Assembly: GCF_900110865.1 (NCBI RefSeq)
Contig: NZ_FOFD01000003.1
Span: forward strand, 496,001-560,000
Source: Natrinema salaciae
GTDB taxonomy: Archaea > Halobacteriota > Halobacteria > Halobacteriales > Natrialbaceae
Direction: 5' to 3'
Length of the DNA: 64,000 nt
The notes below the pieces were generated by a model. It was given only the letters and a program-made list of their open reading frames with translations, ran no database searches and had not been told where the DNA came from. Shown piece by piece: positions 24,656 to 56,380 of this stretch. The position numbers were made by a program, and so were the translations under genes. Positions within the stretch are counted from its first letter, which is position 1; every line of letters begins with the position of its first letter.

Positions 24656-25060
24656 ATGACTGACGCCCCCCAGCACCGCCTCGGGGAACTGATGGAGGAA
24701 TCGAACCCGCCGTTCGAGAAGGTGATGAGCTGCGTCTTCGGCATCGAAGACCACGAGACCCGCACCTATCTCGTCCTGTGCGATCTGCCCGGAAGCACGA
24801 TCGAGGAACTCGCGAGTACCCTCGAGCGCGATCGAAGCACGGTCAACCGGTCGCTGTCGACGCTACACGACCGCGGGCTGGTCCGCCGGGATCGGCGGCT
24901 GCTGGACGGCGGCGGCTACGTCTACCAGTATACCGCCATCGCGTTGCCGGAGGCCAAGGAGATGCTGCACGAGGCGCTGGACGCCTGGACGGCGACGGTT
25001 CACGACGTGATCGACGAGTTCGACGATCGACCGACCGAACCGAACGGCGAGACATCGTGA
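24656..25060 (+). CDS. TrmB-like winged-helix transcriptional regulator
   Basis: A 134-residue DNA-binding protein. The core LPGSTIEELASTLERDRSTV is a helix-turn-helix with the recognition helix followed by NRSLSTLHDRGLVRR and a wing (GGGYVYQYTAI). A C-terminal helix (ALPEAKEMLHEALDAWTATV) would dimerise. There is no sugar-binding domain, so it is the short haloarchaeal form. The ATG at MTDAPQHRLG is preceded by a possible TATA element (GGTATTTTGAC) about 30 bases upstream. Target genes are unknown. Confidence 0.75.
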   Translation: MTDAPQHRLGELMEESNPPFEKVMSCVFGIEDHETRTYLVLCDLPGSTIEELASTLERDRSTVNRSLSTLHDRGLVRRDRRLLDGGGYVYQYTAIALPEAKEMLHEALDAWTATVHDVIDEFDDRPTEPNGETS

Positions 25061-48713: not shown

Positions 48714-48932
48714 TCAGATGCTGTCCCCGTCCTCGAGCCGTTGGACCGAAATCGCGATGAAGTACACCAGCATGAACAGCAAGAATCCGCCCGAGAGACC
48801 GACGAGTTCGACGGTTCCCAGGCTGCCGGGGTTGATTACGGCGAATGCCGCCAGTCCGACGACGAACACCGCGATGATGAAGACGCCGACGCCGTAGTAG
48901 AATCCGAGATCTGACTCGAGGAACCGTCGCAT
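48714..48932 (-). CDS. Small two-span membrane protein (72 aa)
   Basis: The protein begins MRRFLESDLGFYYGVGVFII, continues into span 1 (VFIIAVFVVGLAAFAVI), a short loop and span 2 (GGFLLFMLVYFIAISV), and ends in the acidic tail QRLEDGDSI. Both ends are predicted inside. No family recognised. Same strand as cspA, 110 bases upstream of it. Confidence 0.6.
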   Translation of the reverse strand: MRRFLESDLGFYYGVGVFIIAVFVVGLAAFAVINPGSLGTVELVGLSGGFLLFMLVYFIAISVQRLEDGDSI

Positions 48933-49059
48933 GTGCCGGGTATATCGGTGCGAATAGCAAAACGTTACCGACCCGGGCGAACGCCGTCGCCCCGCGGCCG
49001 GGAGACCAGTGGTTCGAACCGCCGAAGTTCCTTATATGCGTCGTGAATAAACGAAACGT

Positions 49060-49524
49060 ATGACGGAGTACGAACTCGACGCGGTCGATCGGGAGATCCT
49101 CTACGCGTTACAGGAGGAGGCGCGGAACCTCTCCTCGGGCGAGATCGCCGAGCGGACCGACGCCTCCTCGAGTACGGTTCGCAAGCGCATCCAGCGCCTC
49201 GAGTCGGAAGGGGTCATCAAGGGTTACAGCGCGAACATCGATTACACGAAGTCCGGCTACCCGATCCGGATGCTCCTCTTCTGTACGGCACCGATTCCCG
49301 ACCGCGGCGAGTACATCGACGACATCCTCGAGATCTCCGGCGTCGTCTCCGTCCAGGAACTGGTGACGGGCGAACAGAACCTGCTGGTGACGGTCGTCGG
49401 CGAGACGGACCGGGACATCACGCCGGTCGCCCAGGAGGTCGCTGACATGGGCCTGACGATCACCGACGAGGTGCTCGTTCGCAGTCACCGCTCCACGTCG
49501 TTCGACGAATTCTCCTCGCAGTAG
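49060..49524 (+). CDS. Lrp/AsnC-family transcriptional regulator
   Basis: A 154-residue feast/famine regulator. The N-terminal HTH is LDAVDREILYALQEEARNLS followed by SGEIAERTDASSSTVRKRI; the C-terminal RAM/ligand domain covers about 65-145 (VVSVQELVTGEQNLLVTVVG). The TATA-like CCTTATATGCG lies 25-35 bases before the ATG. Such proteins sense amino acids or other small ligands and bind as dimers or octamers. It lies upstream of, and reads toward, the dabB-dabA genes, with 364 bases between; a regulatory link is possible but unproven. Confidence 0.9.
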   Translation: MTEYELDAVDREILYALQEEARNLSSGEIAERTDASSSTVRKRIQRLESEGVIKGYSANIDYTKSGYPIRMLLFCTAPIPDRGEYIDDILEISGVVSVQELVTGEQNLLVTVVGETDRDITPVAQEVADMGLTITDEVLVRSHRSTSFDEFSSQ

Positions 49525-49888
49525 CCCGCCGCGATCGACGACTCGACCCGGCCGCTCGTCGTTCGACCGCCGGGCGGGACCGAGACCCGGCCTCCCGAAC
49601 CACGCTCGAGCGACCGAATCCGCGCCCGTAGCGCTTTTCACCGGTCCGGCCCGGCTTCTCCGCCCGCTCCTGGCGTTCTCCGCCCGTTTTTCGTGCAGTC
49701 GCCGCCCGTTCGGTTTCGTGTTTAAGGAGTATTAATATCTACTAACATACGTATCGAACGCTTTGTTCGAATCGAAGACTATAATAACCGCACTGTTCAC
49801 ATATCGACCGAATACGACCAGCCCGGCAAGTAATGCCGCGAACGGCGAGCCGTGACACCCCGTGCTGGTCCACGAGTGAATTCGACGC
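49525..49888. other. Promoter region of dabB-dabA
   Basis: The second half is AT-rich. An inverted repeat TCGAAC-N5-GTTCGA lies at 49754-49770, just upstream of a TATA-like CTATAATAA (49779-49787) about 105 bases before dabB. Another AT-rich block (GAGTATTAATATCTAC, about 49728) precedes it. No open frame of merit is seen. A 5' untranslated leader of roughly 75 bases would follow from the second TATA, unusual in a genome with many leaderless genes. Confidence 0.45.
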
Positions 49889-51385
49889 ATGAGCGGTGAA
49901 CAAACGCCATCCGACGACGACGTCGCACAACTCTCCGAACCGACGCCCCCCACCTCGTCCGTCGCTCGAGCGTCGACCTGGGCCGTCTGGGCGCTGTTTC
50001 TCTGCAGCGTAGGCGTTCTCGCACTCGCGGCCCGGACCGGCGCTGGGTGGGAGGTCGCGGACTATCTCCGGATCGACGGCCTGACGGCGGTGATGTGGGT
50101 CGTAGCCACGTTCTTCAGCGGGATCGTTCACAGTTACTCCCGCCGCTACATGGCGGGCGACCGCGACGTCGACCGCTTCTATTACCGGGTCCTCGGGTTC
50201 ACCCTCGTCGTCATGGCGCTGACCGCGGCGAACCACGTCGCGCTGTTCGCGGCCGCGTGGCTGGCGATGGGCCTGCTCATGGCCGCGCTCATCGGCCACG
50301 TCCGTGACTGGGAGCAGGCACAGGCCGCCGCTTCCCTCGCCCGCCGCTCCTTCCTCGCCAGCAGCGCGCTGCTGGTCGCCTCGCTGGCCGTCCTGGTCTG
50401 GGCGACGGGTTCGGCGACCATTACCGGCATCTTCGATGGCCTCGAGGGCGTCTCGCGGACGGTCGTCCTCGTCGCCGCCGGCGGACTCGTCCTCGCGGCG
50501 ATCATCCAGTCGGCACTGTTTCCGTTCCACAAGTGGGTACTGTCGTCGATGACGGCACCGACGCCGGCGTCGGCGCTCATGCACGCCGGCTTCGTCAACG
50601 CGGGTGGGGTCCTGCTGACGAGATTCGCCCCGGTCGTCGCCGACGAACTCGCCGTCATGTCGGCCGTCGTCGTCCTCGGGGCGGTCAGCGCCCTAATCGG
50701 ACAGGCGATGATCCTCGTCCAGCCGAACGTCAAGCGCGAACTCGGCTGCTCGACGATGGCCCAGATGGGCTTTATGATACTGCAGTGCGGGCTCGGTTTC
50801 TTCGCCGCCGCGATCGCGCATCTCGTCCTGCACGGCTTCTACAAGGCGTATCTCTTCCTGTCGTCGGGAGCCGCCGTCGAGCAGACGACTCCCGAGACCG
50901 CCGGACGCACCCATCTCGGCTTCTCGGGGCTCATCGTCAGTCTGGTGACGGCCGTCGGCGGCGGGGCACTGTTCGGCGTCCTCACCGGGAAGGCGACGAG
51001 TCTCGCGTTGACCGGCGGGACCGTCCTGACGCTCGTGGTCGTGCTGACGACGCTGACCGCCGCCCGCGATATCCTCCGGCGGTCGACCTTGCCAACGGCA
51101 GTCAGGTTCGTCAGCGTCCCGCTGGTGGTGCTGACCGCCATCGGCGGCTACGCCGTCGCGTTCAACACCGTCTCGAGGATGCTCTCGGGCGTGCCGATGA
51201 CTCACGTTCCGACCGAGATGACGGTCGTCCACTCCCTCGTCGTCGCCCTGTTCGCCGGCGCCTATCTCGCCGTGGAATTCGGCTGGCACCGCTCGAGCGA
51301 GCGCCTCTACGTCTCACTGCTGAACCTCTCCCAACCCGATCCGACGACGGTTCTCACCGATACGGAGGAGTACAACGATGTCTGA
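49889..51385 (+). CDS. dabB: DabB: membrane subunit of the DAB inorganic-carbon transporter
   Basis: A 498-residue protein with about 13 spans homologous to the proton-pumping antiporter-like subunits of complex I (NuoL/MrpA). Family motifs are IVHSYSRRYMAGDRDVDRFY and FPFHKWVLSSMTAPTPASAL, plus GFYKAYLFLSSGAAVE. It is shorter than NuoL and is not near any nuo or mrp genes but overlaps dabA, which identifies it as DabB. With DabA it forms an energy-coupled CO2-hydrating pump that builds a cytosolic bicarbonate pool. The first 30 residues are a non-conserved acidic tail. Confidence 0.88.
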   Translation: MSGEQTPSDDDVAQLSEPTPPTSSVARASTWAVWALFLCSVGVLALAARTGAGWEVADYLRIDGLTAVMWVVATFFSGIVHSYSRRYMAGDRDVDRFYYRVLGFTLVVMALTAANHVALFAAAWLAMGLLMAALIGHVRDWEQAQAAASLARRSFLASSALLVASLAVLVWATGSATITGIFDGLEGVSRTVVLVAAGGLVLAAIIQSALFPFHKWVLSSMTAPTPASALMHAGFVNAGGVLLTRFAPVVADELAVMSAVVVLGAVSALIGQAMILVQPNVKRELGCSTMAQMGFMILQCGLGFFAAAIAHLVLHGFYKAYLFLSSGAAVEQTTPETAGRTHLGFSGLIVSLVTAVGGGALFGVLTGKATSLALTGGTVLTLVVVLTTLTAARDILRRSTLPTAVRFVSVPLVVLTAIGGYAVAFNTVSRMLSGVPMTHVPTEMTVVHSLVVALFAGAYLAVEFGWHRSSERLYVSLLNLSQPDPTTVLTDTEEYNDV

Positions 51386-53903
51386 GTCAATCGACGATCA
51401 GCGCCGCATCGAGGAGAGTATCGACCGCGCGGCCGACCGCATCGGTGCGGCCTGGCCGCTGCACTCGTTCGTCACGGCCAACCCCCTCTCGGGGTTCGAG
51501 GACGAGCCGTTCCACCGGGCCGTCGCGGAGGGCCGGCGGCTGTTCGGCGGCCGGGGCTACCCGCGTCCGTCGGTCTTCCGTCGGGCCTGGGAGGACGGCC
51601 GGATCGATCCCGACGTCCTGGCCGCCAAACTCGAGGCCCACGGGATCGACCGGGAGCCCGAGCCACTCCTCGAAGAGATGGCCGAAACCGAAGCCGAACG
51701 CGGGGAGACCGAGCGCGACGACGCAACTGAAGACGTCGACCGGGTGCTCTCGAAGTGGCTCGCTGCCTTCCTCGACGAGGGCGAGGCGAAGTGGCCGATG
51801 CCCAACCGCGAGGAGGGCTTTTACGCTGCGTGGCGCGCGGTCGCACCCTACGACGGCGACGTGCCCGGCTGTGACGACACTGCGGACCTCCCCGAGACGG
51901 CGACCGTGGCGCTCGAGGCGGTACTGAGCGACTATCCCGAGGGGCGGTGGGTCGACGTCCTCGAGCACCACCTCGCCGCGCTTCCGGGCTGGAGCGGGTT
52001 GGTCAAGCAGCGGGCCGACGACGACACCGATCCGTGGCAGGCAGCGTATCCGATCACGCTCGAGGGGTATCTAGCGGTGCGCCTGACGCTGGCCGACCTG
52101 CTCGACGCCCCGATCGATCCCGACGATGCGAGCGAGGACGGCACCCCTGACGCCGGCGATGACGACGATGTTCCACTCCCTCAGATCTGGCTGACCGCCT
52201 GGGAGAAGAGCTACCGCGACCGCCTGCTCGAGGGGATCGACGGCTCCGTTACGGACCCATCGGACGCGAGTGACGACGACCGGTCGGCCGCTCAGCTCGT
52301 GTTCTGTATCGACACCCGCTCGGAGGTCATCCGCCGCCACATCGAGGCCCAGGGGCCCTACGAGACCCACGGCTACGCGGGCTTCTTCGGCGTGCCGATT
52401 CGCTACCGAGGGTACGACTCCCACGCCGAGGCCGATGCCTGCCCGCCGATCGTCGATCCGGAGCACCGCATCGTCGACCGGCCCGAAACGGGCGCTGTCG
52501 ACGGCGCGACCGACGGAGACGGATCGGACCCGGTGACCGCCCACGACCGCTGGAACGGACTGGTGACCGCGGCCCGAAAACACTTCAAGACGCTCAAGAC
52601 CAACGTCGTCGCTGCCTTCACCTTCGTCGAGGGCGCCGGCAGCGCCTACGGATCGGCGATGGCCGCTCGGACCCTGTCGCCCTCGACGATCGCCAAGCTC
52701 GGCACCGCCGTCGACGAACGCGTACCGAGCCCACACGAGTTCAGTTCCCCTGCGATCGATTACGACGCGTACGACGATCACACACACGGCGACCACGACC
52801 TCCAGCAGGGAATGAGCCTCGAGGAGAAAGTCGAGTACGCCGCGACTGCCTTCGAACTCATGGGGTGGACGGAGTTTGCCCGTCTGGTGGTCTTTACGGG
52901 TCACGCGAGCGAGACGACGAACAACCCCTTCGACTCGAGCCTCGACTGTGGTGCCTGCGCCGGAAACCCTGGCGGACCGAACGCCCGCGTGCTCGCGGCG
53001 ATCTGTAACGACGAGGACGTCGTGGCTGCCCTCCGCGATCGCGGATTCGATATCCCCACGGACACCGTCTTCCTCGCGGGCGAGCACAACACGACGACCG
53101 ACGAGATCACCATCTTCGACGGCGACGTACCCGAAAGCCACCGCGAGGATCTAGCGCGGTTGCACGAGGACCTCGAGGCGGCCCGTATCGGTGCCGCGGC
53201 CGAGCGCACCGCGTCGGCGAGCGACGACGACGCGACGGGCGCGAACCTCGAGAACGCGGTCGACGAGGTCGAACGCAAAGCAGCCGACTGGGCCGAGACT
53301 CGCCCCGAGTGGGGGCTGGCCGGCAACGCCTCCTTCGTCATCGGGCCGCGCGAGTTGACCGACGACCGGACCCTCGACGGCCGCGCGTTCCTCCACTCCT
53401 ACGACTGGACGACCGATCCGGACGGCGACGCCCTCGAGGCGATCCTCACGGGCCCGCTGGTCGTCACTCAGTGGATCAACAACCAGTACTACTTCGCGAC
53501 CGTCGACAACGGCGTCTACGGGAGCGGGTCGAAGGTCACCCAGAACCCGGTCGGGAACGTCGGCGTCGTTCAGGGCAACGGCGGCGACCTGATGACCGGC
53601 CTGCCGCTCCAGTCGCTGAAGCTCGACGACGACCGGCCGTACCACCAGCCGCTGCGGCTGACGGCCGTGATCCACGCGCCGGTCGACCGCGTGACCGAAA
53701 TCCTCCGCGAGCACGAGGACGTTCGGACGCTCCTCGACAACGGCTGGATCGGCGACCTGACTGTCGTCGACCCCGAACAGGACAACGACCCGTTCCACTA
53801 CGCGGGCGACCTCGAGTGGGAGGCCGACGCCGAACTCGAGGTCGAAGCGACGGCGGAGACCGAACCGACGACGCCGACCGCACGGACGGCGGACGACGAC
53901 TGA
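51378..53903 (+). CDS. dabA: DabA: catalytic subunit of the DAB inorganic-carbon transporter (DUF2309)
   Basis: An 841-residue protein of the DUF2309/UPF0753 family. The carbonic anhydrase-like zinc site is readable: Cys310 and Asp312 in LVFCIDTRSE, His509 in FTGHASE, and Cys524 in LDCGACAG. The 15-residue gap between the last two equals that of the characterised DabA. HSFVTANPLSGFED near residue 30 is the family N-terminus. The start codon lies inside the last codons of dabB (8-base overlap), so they are coupled. It is peripheral on the cytoplasmic face, bound to DabB. Confidence 0.92.
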   Translation: MSESIDDQRRIEESIDRAADRIGAAWPLHSFVTANPLSGFEDEPFHRAVAEGRRLFGGRGYPRPSVFRRAWEDGRIDPDVLAAKLEAHGIDREPEPLLEEMAETEAERGETERDDATEDVDRVLSKWLAAFLDEGEAKWPMPNREEGFYAAWRAVAPYDGDVPGCDDTADLPETATVALEAVLSDYPEGRWVDVLEHHLAALPGWSGLVKQRADDDTDPWQAAYPITLEGYLAVRLTLADLLDAPIDPDDASEDGTPDAGDDDDVPLPQIWLTAWEKSYRDRLLEGIDGSVTDPSDASDDDRSAAQLVFCIDTRSEVIRRHIEAQGPYETHGYAGFFGVPIRYRGYDSHAEADACPPIVDPEHRIVDRPETGAVDGATDGDGSDPVTAHDRWNGLVTAARKHFKTLKTNVVAAFTFVEGAGSAYGSAMAARTLSPSTIAKLGTAVDERVPSPHEFSSPAIDYDAYDDHTHGDHDLQQGMSLEEKVEYAATAFELMGWTEFARLVVFTGHASETTNNPFDSSLDCGACAGNPGGPNARVLAAICNDEDVVAALRDRGFDIPTDTVFLAGEHNTTTDEITIFDGDVPESHREDLARLHEDLEAARIGAAAERTASASDDDATGANLENAVDEVERKAADWAETRPEWGLAGNASFVIGPRELTDDRTLDGRAFLHSYDWTTDPDGDALEAILTGPLVVTQWINNQYYFATVDNGVYGSGSKVTQNPVGNVGVVQGNGGDLMTGLPLQSLKLDDDRPYHQPLRLTAVIHAPVDRVTEILREHEDVRTLLDNGWIGDLTVVDPEQDNDPFHYAGDLEWEADAELEVEATAETEPTTPTARTADDD

Positions 53904-53997
53904 CGCCGTCTCGAGGGGTGATCACGTTAGTTGCCTGCACGGGCCACAGCGTCGCCGTGTCGCTCGGGGCACGGGTTCGTCCATCACGCCGTACGAC

Positions 53998-54225
53998 TCA
54001 CCGCTCATCGATTACAGCGAGCATCGCGCACCCGATCGTGACCGTGGCACCTAAAAACAGGACCATCACGAGGGGCTCCGCTACTTCGGAAGACGCCAGA
54101 TGAACGCCGAACAGCCAGTAGAGTAGGGCACCGAGAAGCGCGAACGCCGGCGAACCGATGTAGAAATACCAGTTGTTGTTCCAGCCTCCCGAACCGAACA
54201 ATTTCGACCGCAACGGGAGCGGCAT
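53998..54225 (-). CDS. Small two-span membrane protein (75 aa)
   Basis: The protein begins MPLPLRSKLFGSGGWNNNWY, then has spans around FYIGSPAFALLGALLYWLFG and LVMVLFLGATVTIGCAMLAV, ending in IDER. It lies convergent to dabA between the carbon pump and the carbonic anhydrase; position alone does not prove a role in carbon uptake. No family recognised. Confidence 0.55.
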   Translation of the reverse strand: MPLPLRSKLFGSGGWNNNWYFYIGSPAFALLGALLYWLFGVHLASSEVAEPLVMVLFLGATVTIGCAMLAVIDER

Positions 54226-54256
54226 ACGATAACGAAACCGGCCCGTTCACAAATAC

Positions 54257-54472
54257 GTGGCGTACTGTCTCGGGTTCAACCAACCGATTGACCCACAGCA
54301 ATTTGTCCCAGAACAGATCACGCAGCCACCAACGCCGCACGCGTCGGAACGGCTAACGTTTCGACGCCGAATCGAGTCGTACGGGACGAGTGCTCGAGAC
54401 CGACTCGTCGTTCGCGAACTCGTCGATCGGTACCGGGCCGACCTGAGCGAGACGCTACCGGCGGCCGACTGA
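54257..54472 (+). CDS. Possible small protein (71 aa)
   Basis: A GTG-started frame reading VAYCLGFNQPIDPQQFVPEQ and ending RYRADLSETLPAAD. Codon use in the second half (VVRELVDRYRADLSETL) is haloarchaeal, the first half is less so. It is divergent from the membrane protein at 53998 with only 31 bases between the starts. It could be real or the decayed end of something larger. Confidence 0.3.
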   Translation: MAYCLGFNQPIDPQQFVPEQITQPPTPHASERLTFRRRIESYGTSARDRLVVRELVDRYRADLSETLPAAD

Positions 54473-54524
54473 AGCCGCGTCGGAGAGTGGACCCGTCGCG
54501 GCGGGCTGACGGGCGTCCCACCGG

Positions 54525-55229
54525 CTACCGAGCGAGCAGACTGCGAGTCGTCGCCTCGTACCCCTCGGGGACGACGTCGGCGAGCGCGTCGGGATCCGTC
54601 TCCCCGTCGACGGAGACGAGGTACGTGCGTCCGGGCTCGTCGCCGTAGACGCCCTGGAAGTCGTAGACGAAGCCGTAGATCTCGGCGTCTTCCGGGACGT
54701 CGTCGGCCTCGCACAGCGAGCGCACCTGATAGCCGACGTTGTACTCGACGAGCTGGTTGACGACCCGGTCGTCGTCCACGTCGGTGTCGATCCGACCGCT
54801 CTCAAGGGCGTCCTCGACGACGGGGACGAGCATATCGATCCACTTATCGACGCCTTGCGGGCCGGGCGGCTCCTCGCCGATCGCGACCCGGTAGGCGGCG
54901 GTGACGGCGCCGCAGCCGGTGTGGCCCACGACGGCGACGACGCCGGTGCCGGTGTGGTGGATCGGATAGAGGATCCCGCCGTCGATGACCCGCTCGCCGT
55001 CGTCCTCGTCCCAGACCTGATTCCCGATGTTGCTCGGCGTGAAGACGGCACCGGGTCGATCGATGCCCCACATCCCCTCGTGGGAGACCCGCGAGTCCGA
55101 ACAGCAGACCGCGACGACGTTCGGGTGCTGGCTCGTCTGGACGTCAGCGAAGTAGTCCTCGGGCAGCGCCTCGACGTGGCGCTGGTTGCCCGCGAGTAAC
55201 TCCTCGAGGATACCGCGATCGGTCGCCAT
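54525..55229 (-). CDS. Beta-class carbonic anhydrase
   Basis: A 234-residue zinc enzyme interconverting CO2 and bicarbonate. Zinc ligands are Cys43 in CCSDSR and His103/Cys106 in GHTGCGAV; the Asp45-Arg47 dyad of the catalytic site is present. The ATG at MATDRGILEELL was chosen because it matches the family start. Length is typical. Lying 620 bases beyond dabA on the opposite strand, it could balance the bicarbonate pool made by DabAB or supply bicarbonate for carboxylases. Confidence 0.94.
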   Translation of the reverse strand: MATDRGILEELLAGNQRHVEALPEDYFADVQTSQHPNVVAVCCSDSRVSHEGMWGIDRPGAVFTPSNIGNQVWDEDDGERVIDGGILYPIHHTGTGVVAVVGHTGCGAVTAAYRVAIGEEPPGPQGVDKWIDMLVPVVEDALESGRIDTDVDDDRVVNQLVEYNVGYQVRSLCEADDVPEDAEIYGFVYDFQGVYGDEPGRTYLVSVDGETDPDALADVVPEGYEATTRSLLAR

Positions 55230-55363
55230 GGTTCCCGTACGCGAACGACGGGCAAAAAGGTTCGAGCCGGGGGACTCGCGTCGATTCGGGGCGGTCGTCC
55301 CCGGGCGACTCCCGAAGGTTCCGGGAAGCCAATCTTCACTTACCGGCACCGCCATGTGTGGGT

Positions 55364-56380
55364 ATGGCAGAAACCAGACAGTGGCAGCTCGCCAGTCGGC
55401 CGGTCGGTGAACCGACCGCGGAGAACTTCGAACTCGTCACCGTCGATCGCCCCGAGCCTGACGACGGCGAGGTCCTCGTGAAGACCCTGTACCAGTCCGT
55501 CGATCCCTATATGCGCGGGCGCATGCGCGATGCGGAATCGTACGCGGAGCCGTGGGACGTCGGCGACCCGATGCGAGCCGGCGTCGTCGGCGAGGTCCTC
55601 GAGTCCGAGGCGGACGGGTTCGAGGAAGGCGACGTCGTCACCGGCGACCTCCTGTGGGCGGAACACGCGGTCGGCGACGCGGACGAACTCCGGAAGGTAA
55701 ATCCGGAGCTCGGCCCGGTCTCGACGGCGCTGGGCGTGCTCGGAATGCCCGGCGTGACGGCCTACTGGGGGCTGCTCGACGTCGGCGACCCCAAGCCCGG
55801 CGACACCGTCTTCGTCTCGGCCGCCGCGGGGGCGGTCGGTTCGGTCGTCGGCCAGCTCGCCCGGCTCAACGGCGCGCGCGTCGTCGGTACCGCCGGTAGC
55901 GACGAGAAGATCGAGTGGCTCACGGAGGAGCTGGGCTTCGACGCCGCGATCAACTACAAGGAGACCGACGACCTCTCCGGAGCGGTAGCCGAGGCCTGCC
56001 CGAACGGGATCGACGTCTACTTCGACAACGTCGGCGGCCCCATCACCGACGCCGTCTGGCCCCGGCTGAACGAGTTCTCACGGGTCGCGATCTGCGGCCA
56101 GATCGCGCTGTACAACGAGACGGAGGTCCCGACCGGCCCCCGAAAGCTCGCGACGCTCATCGAGAAACGCGCGAAAGTCGAAGGCCTGCTCGTCAGCGAC
56201 TACCAGGATCGCTGGGGCGAGGCGCTCAAGCGACTCGCTCGGTTCATTCAGGAAGACGAGATCCGCTACCGCGAGAACGTCGTCGAGGGCTTCGAGAACG
56301 CACCCGACGCGTTCCTCGGGCTGTTCGAGGGTGAGAACATCGGGAAACAGTTGGTGAAGGTCGCCGAGTTCGACGGCTAG
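55364..56380 (+). CDS. NADP-dependent oxidoreductase, zinc-free MDR type (CurA-like)
   Basis: A 338-residue medium-chain reductase of the leukotriene B4 dehydrogenase / curcumin reductase group, which reduces carbon-carbon double bonds next to carbonyls with NADPH. Signatures are SVDPYMRGRM, GMPGVTAYWGLLDVGDPKPG and the cofactor loop VSAAAGAVGSVVGQLARLNG; IDVYFDNVGG and ICGQIALYN are also present. It lacks zinc ligands. I chose ATG at MAETRQWQLASRP; an ORF start 6 bases upstream is possible. Divergent from the carbonic anhydrase. Confidence 0.9.
   Translation: MAETRQWQLASRPVGEPTAENFELVTVDRPEPDDGEVLVKTLYQSVDPYMRGRMRDAESYAEPWDVGDPMRAGVVGEVLESEADGFEEGDVVTGDLLWAEHAVGDADELRKVNPELGPVSTALGVLGMPGVTAYWGLLDVGDPKPGDTVFVSAAAGAVGSVVGQLARLNGARVVGTAGSDEKIEWLTEELGFDAAINYKETDDLSGAVAEACPNGIDVYFDNVGGPITDAVWPRLNEFSRVAICGQIALYNETEVPTGPRKLATLIEKRAKVEGLLVSDYQDRWGEALKRLARFIQEDEIRYRENVVEGFENAPDAFLGLFEGENIGKQLVKVAEFDG

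Follow-up and report, generated by a model that had tools for sequence, protein, structure and literature searches.

What does a DAB pump, a type of complex described in CO2-concentrating autotrophs, do in archaea that are mostly heterotrophic, and what controls it there? The question is raised by a locus of Natrinema salaciae lying in the window analysed here, a stretch of 64,000 nt (GCF_900110865.1, contig NZ_FOFD01000003.1, positions 496,001-560,000, forward strand) that carries genes for an Lrp/AsnC-family regulator (Lrp), the membrane subunit DabB, the zinc subunit DabA and a beta-carbonic anhydrase (beta-CA; Table 1). An original prediction, whose genes and coordinates hold, had read the four as a carbon-concentrating-like cluster in which the pump feeds carboxylases and the Lrp could control it. 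That dabAB is present in haloarchaea is already known: passages of the respective papers state that Haloarchaea were, as of 2017, the only archaea known to have the pair (PMC5700660) and that DACs occur in heterotrophic Halobacteria (PMC10880623). Judging from sequence comparison, we consider it probable that dabB-dabA encodes a DAB pump which supplies carboxylases with bicarbonate, is able to replace a beta-CA and stands under a dedicated Lrp-family regulator.

Both subunits resemble those of the DAB2 complex of Halothiobacillus neapolitanus. DabA covers the full PF10070 profile (878 bits) and matches DabA2 (9rd0_A) with an E-value of 5e-103, whereas DabB, predicted from the start to be of the antiporter type, matches PF00361 and PF00662 and has DabB2 (9rd0_B) as its best PDB match (E 1e-35). 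The zinc and catalytic residues of DabA2 are C351, D353, R355, H524 and C539, and its finger residue is E444 (PMC13144422). Cys310, Asp312, His509 and Cys524 of the window DabA, named in the original prediction as a complete zinc site, align with C351, D353, H524 and C539, and two further functional residues, R314 and E418, correspond to R355 and E444. All six are invariant in the 74 haloarchaeal DabAs of the loci that we fetched from a class sample of 116 Halobacteria genomes, 75 of which have DabA; in the phylum sample of 246 genomes all 27 DabA matches fall in the window's order. The pair thus joins a PF10070 DabA with a C-D-R-H-C zinc site and a finger Glu to an adjacent antiporter-like DabB, as DAB/DAC pumps do. 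Homology and catalytic residues are observed; by analogy with H. neapolitanus DAB2 the pair would act as a pump. As a side observation, a number of DabA relatives, mostly from Nitrospinota and Nitrospirota (L150-L167, L174, L179), have Asp in place of the finger Glu, and at many of these loci an antiporter-like gene follows dabA at a distance of about 6 kb.

The membrane subunit combines a conserved proton path with a missing ion pair. S228, H232, K282, S288, H311, H315 and K319 of the window DabB align with S256, H260, K310, S316, H339, H343 and K347 of DabB2, and all seven are unchanged throughout the 74 haloarchaeal loci. The K235/D185 ion pair of DabB2, which is not treated as defining for DABs, is not found in haloarchaeal DabB: the Lys of transmembrane helix 7 (TM7), K235, is Gln207 in 74 of 74 sequences, the D185 position (159 in the window's DabB) is mostly Ser, and nowhere between positions 88 and 244 does an acidic residue reach 95% conservation. 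In a second set, made up of named organisms whose genomes partly overlap the class sample, Gln occupies the TM7 position in 36 of the 37 readable haloarchaeal loci and Glu in the other. Lys is present in 22 of 25 readable bacterial DabB matches, many of which lie about 6 kb downstream of dabA and are maybe other NuoL-like subunits; for the 12 bacterial dabB genes directly before dabA, the counts are nine Lys, two Arg and one Ala.

With the TM7 Lys replaced, ion coupling may differ, and instead of an enzyme that hydrates CO2 and is driven by protons, the complex could be a transporter of bicarbonate or an antiporter of ions, possibly coupled to sodium. This has been argued for MpsAB, which according to PMC13144422 was proposed as a Na+/HCO3- symporter, and it would suit a sodium-rich habitat. 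The zinc site and finger Glu are nevertheless invariant, as expected for catalysis, and every other tested proton-path residue is kept. Moreover, DAB2 with Ala variants of the ion pair retained the ability to complement, at yields 30 to 60 percent lower (PMC13144422), which makes a haloarchaeal pump with altered coupling plausible. We regard a pure transporter as unlikely, if a serious contender, and prefer a CO2-hydrating pump; its fixed Gln, being a natural variant, lends itself to tests of the coupling between ion flow and CO2 hydration in DABs.

The role of such a pump can be approached through the genes that accompany it. The original prediction took heterotrophic haloarchaea to be without a Calvin cycle and proposed to look for RuBisCO elsewhere in the genome. 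The search of the window's own genome found no RuBisCO-family gene, in line with that premise, which is nonetheless too simple for the class as a whole, since 42 of the 116 Halobacteria carry one. DabA shows no association with these genes (29 of 75 genomes with DabA versus 13 of 41 without, Fisher p 0.55), and on both grounds we rejected a link between RuBisCO and the pump. Nor is DabA associated with methylaspartate mutase, taken as a marker of a bicarbonate-using acetate pathway (PF06368, matches below the curated cut-off dropped; 25 of 75 versus 14 of 41, p 1.0). As far as RuBisCO is concerned, the pump does not qualify as part of a CO2-concentrating mechanism, which would serve RuBisCO or a carboxysome; carboxysome genes were not searched.

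The neighbouring CA is the sole PF00484 gene of its genome (83.5 bits), and its translation reads Cys43, Asp45 and Arg47, His103 and Cys106, and Gln34, that is, the CxDxR and HxxC zinc site of a beta-CA with a Gln nearby. The gene lies on the opposite strand, convergent with dabA and about 620 bp away; this order is limited to 11 of 74 loci, every one from the window's family, and CA homologues anywhere in the fetched stretch occur in 28 of 74, five of them degenerate. We therefore rejected the CA as a member of the operon. The four predicted genes are all present but do not form one cluster, and with CA adjacency confined to one family and DabA not linked to RuBisCO, the carbon-concentrating interpretation is not supported. 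A true CO2-concentrating mechanism that feeds RuBisCO with the CA as partner would agree with the autotrophs in which DABs were described and with the RuBisCO-family genes of the class, but it would have to operate in a genome without such a gene, with a CA outside the operon, and in 12 DabA-containing genomes without any beta-CA; we consider it highly improbable. What stands, on sequence evidence, is an inorganic-carbon pump of the DAB type, likely feeding carboxylases, in an organism that has no RuBisCO.

The distribution of beta-CA suggests what the pump could be for. The 12 genomes without a PF00484 gene all have DabA, so that genomes without both number 0 of 116 against 4.2 expected by independence (Fisher p 0.008, a value that overstates independence because the genomes are related; the 12 span five genera). 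DabA and beta-CA look like alternatives. Since DabA is present in every genome without beta-CA and is not tied to RuBisCO, the pump has the appearance of a bicarbonate source and not of a CO2-concentrating device. If it supplies carboxylases with bicarbonate, it should be able to replace a beta-CA; the co-occurrence is observed, and the function is inferred. Species with DabA and without beta-CA are a natural test case for the question whether growth in air is possible with a DAB pump alone.

Two further observations concern CA relatives. A degenerate beta-CA-like gene stands directly before dabB, on the dabB strand, in five loci (L042, L061, L069, L097 and L101). These genes keep the Cys and the His-x2-Cys and are without the Asp of CxDxR where it can be read, the L061 copy looks broken, and a zinc-binding sensor or subunit is a possible function. 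The window's own genome also encodes L189, a hexapeptide protein related to structures of the gamma-CA family; in one alignment it has Asn in place of a His that the best match carries near the zinc site.

Control by the Lrp, which the original prediction had mentioned as something that could be the case, is suggested much more strongly by co-inheritance and by sites upstream of dabB. In a protein search, orthologues of the window Lrp, all at 67% identity or above and E 6e-65 or better (the next homologues are at 53% and E 5e-45), turned up in 74 of 75 genomes with DabA and in 0 of 41 without. Six genera contain both DabA states (g1, g2, g8, g15, g16 and g35), and in these, too, the Lrp tracks DabA. 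In 72 of the 74 fetched loci it is found upstream and in the same orientation; the exceptions are L074 (genome G037), where the orthologue is about 56 kb from dabA, and L101 (G021). One genome, G025, has its dabA split over two contigs and was not among the fetched loci; its Lrp sits on the contig with the dabA start. In the second set the Lrp is upstream in 36 of 38 haloarchaeal or haloarchaeal-like loci, both misses being cut by a contig end. No match to the window Lrp was found in 36 bacterial dab loci, some of them short, and a LysR-family gene is nearby in five of eight annotated bacterial plasmid loci. Mirror comparison of pairwise identities gave a correlation of 0.95 for DabA and DabB and of 0.69 for DabA and Lrp, the latter probably too low because the Lrp set contains one paralogue (L085).

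The regulator has an AsnC-type helix-turn-helix (HTH) in the window protein, besides HTH_24, and in 29 of 29 orthologues. Neither the 25 best families of the window Lrp nor the 25 families matched by most members include Pfam's C-terminal AsnC model. A predicted structure (mean pLDDT 63, modest confidence) shows an HTH followed by beta-alpha-beta-beta-alpha-beta, and its best Foldseek matches are Lrp/FFRP proteins over their full length (E 5e-10), so that the model would provide the C-terminal RAM domain of the family.

Several loci illustrate how the three genes are arranged elsewhere. Haloarcula marismortui pNG700 (L114) carries a plasmid-borne Lrp-dabB-dabA with a winged-HTH gene annotated upstream, and genome G049 has two dabBA copies (L069 and L093), each with its own Lrp. 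In L038 (G099) Lrp, DabB and DabA are all nearer to the window's family than to their own, which suggests transfer as a unit.

Upstream of dabB, counts of inverted repeats that involved no training found AACA-N3-TGTT in 23 of 74 regions and GAAC-N5-GTTC in 21, compared with at most six regions for any 4-bp repeat in five shuffles. With a 17-bp palindromic matrix, 71 of 74 regions ahead of dabB contain a site of 12 bits or more, an optimistic figure because the matrix was trained on these same regions, versus 4 of 840 regions upstream of other genes at the same loci; two of those four precede the CA-like gene ahead of dabB in L042 and L069. Among named loci outside the training set, after removal of six duplicates and of two loci whose upstream sequence could not be used, 28 of 30 reach 12 bits. 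The looser GAAC-N5-GTTC with one mismatch separates more poorly (54 of 74 dabB regions versus 167 of 840 others). Exact TCGAAC-N5-GTTCGA occurs twice in the window, at 24701-24717 and at 49754-49770, the latter within the region 49525-49888 where the original prediction had suggested mapping Lrp binding and where we find the conserved palindrome beside a TATA box. Anchoring on this box worked in 65 of 74 regions and revealed a conserved site just upstream of it and a GTTC after it, the frequency of the GTTC being inflated because it belonged to the pattern that chose the anchor. A further site some 30 bp upstream is visible by eye in many loci. The composite promoter pattern, with up to three mismatches, occurs once in the window's own genome, and in G037, with its distant Lrp, a site-like sequence still precedes dabB. 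Co-inheritance and site conservation are observed, and binding of the Lrp to these palindromes is predicted from them; a site just upstream of the TATA box would fit activation, one across it repression.

Apart from the two cautions attached to the Fisher and matrix figures, the following weigh against our reading. With the window's family left out of training, only 3 of its 13 loci reach at least 12 bits and 9 of 13 at least 10 (range 7.2-21.8), the window's own site scoring 7.2; these low values arise because the family uses the variant TCGAAC-N5-GTTCGA. The G021 assembly has DabA and no Lrp orthologue, its dabA lying near a contig end. No autoregulatory site of at least 12 bits was found upstream of lrp (0 of 69), and the sites upstream of dabB could belong to another regulator. 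A gamma-CA-like gene is present in 5 of the 12 genomes without beta-CA, so that the absence of any CA is more certain in the remaining seven. Finally, haloarchaeal DabB is without the K235/D185 ion pair that DAB2 keeps.

Some of these points would suit a constitutive DAB pump, linked by synteny to an Lrp that regulates something else, such as amino-acid metabolism, the palindromes being bound by a different factor. It is common for Lrp proteins to act on numerous genes, and no site of at least 12 bits lies ahead of lrp. A regulator with other duties would hardly be missing from all 41 genomes without DabA, even in genera of mixed state, however; the flanking genes do not travel with the pair, and the composite promoter pattern is found just once in the window's genome. 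We judge a constitutive pump to be decidedly improbable and retain dedicated control by the Lrp.

Taken together, the dabB-dabA operon would encode a DAB-type vectorial CO2-hydration pump. In DabA, CO2 would be hydrated at a zinc site buried in the protein; ions flowing down the membrane gradient by way of DabB and the DabA finger helix would render the reaction one-way and let bicarbonate accumulate, which may then feed biosynthetic and anaplerotic carboxylases. The Lrp encoded directly ahead of the operon would bind palindromes that lie immediately upstream of the dabB TATA box, and probably also across it, in response to an effector related to carbon supply. A broader proposal, that the Lrp orthologue is a dedicated archaeal regulator of inorganic-carbon status and forms, with a DAB pump rewired by the loss of the TM7 Lys and the Asp, a mobile, self-regulated bicarbonate module that substitutes for CA, is tentative, and we hold it to be possible rather than probable. 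A co-inherited regulator and a readable operator make the regulation of archaeal bicarbonate supply a question that can be tested in Haloferax volcanii.

Around this core the loci vary. The reading frames of dabB and dabA overlap by 8 bp; a DabB-DabA fusion suspected in G039 from a 1349-aa open frame was rejected, as the gene calls give two overlapping genes. The order Lrp-dabB-dabA stays while the flanking genes differ, and about 20 loci have an opposite-strand gene between Lrp and dabB (e.g. L037 4070-5086, dabA-oriented, ~338 aa) labelled amidohydrolase-like from its sequence and not from a family search. In the window, a 75-aa open reading frame between dabA and the CA (53998-54225, minus strand) has two probable membrane segments and no relative in the fetched dabA loci, and a small membrane-like protein of 72 aa (48714-48932, minus strand) has relatives in other loci (cluster of 11). 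An Rfam scan of 48900-55400 for an RNA element in the leader gave no match.

Table 1. Features of the dabBA locus in the window (positions are those of the 64,000-nt stretch).
Feature	Position	Strand	Remarks
Lrp/AsnC-family (FFRP) regulator, 154 aa	49060..49524	+	proposed dedicated dabBA regulator; HTH_24 and HTH_AsnC-type
Possible decayed second operator	49725..49741	.	~30 bp upstream of main site; suggested by position and partial match to site-1 consensus of relatives; too weak alone
Palindrome TCGAAC-N5-GTTCGA, proposed regulator binding site	49754..49770	.	equivalent in 71/74 dabB upstream regions, window included
TATA-box-like TATAATA	49780..49786	+	109 nt before dabB start; conserved TTTAATA/TATAATA
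GTTC, possible third half-site after TATA box	49795..49798	.	conserved positions +15 to +18 after TATA box
dabB, antiporter-like membrane subunit	49889..51385	+	PF00361/PF00662; best PDB match DabB2 9rd0_B
dabA, cytoplasmic CO2-hydrating zinc subunit (by homology)	51378..53903	+	PF10070; DabA2 9rd0_A
Canonical beta-carbonic anhydrase	54525..55229	-	PF00484; neighbour of operon, not member

Compared with known systems, the locus shares with DAB2 of H. neapolitanus (9rd0) the two-gene DabA/DabB design, the beta-CA-like zinc site of C, D, R, H and C, the finger Glu and, in DabB, a proton path of S/H/K/S/H/H/K. It differs in the TM7 Gln in place of K235, in the absence of a conserved acidic residue around the D185 position, in a genome without RuBisCO and in the Lrp-family regulator upstream. 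MpsAB of Staphylococcus aureus is likewise a DAB-family pair in a non-autotroph and able to replace a carbonic anhydrase: the abstract of PMC6689103 reports that mpsAB complements an E. coli CA mutant and that the E. coli CA complements an mpsABC mutant. In this comparison of published descriptions, its proposed Na+/HCO3- symport sets it apart. As an archaeal Lrp/AsnC (FFRP) protein the regulator has the usual AsnC-type HTH and, in its model, a RAM-like C-terminal fold; it departs from other members in that the C-terminal AsnC family ranks outside its 25 best Pfam families and in its co-inheritance with dabBA. Our literature search, which did not reach most subscription journals, found no report linking an Lrp to dabBA. 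Another close counterpart is the haloarchaeal pair of Haloferax volcanii, HVO_2410/HVO_2411, predicted in passages of PMC8305020 to be dabAB, a carbon dioxide transporter; those passages mention no regulator, promoter sites or relation to CA.

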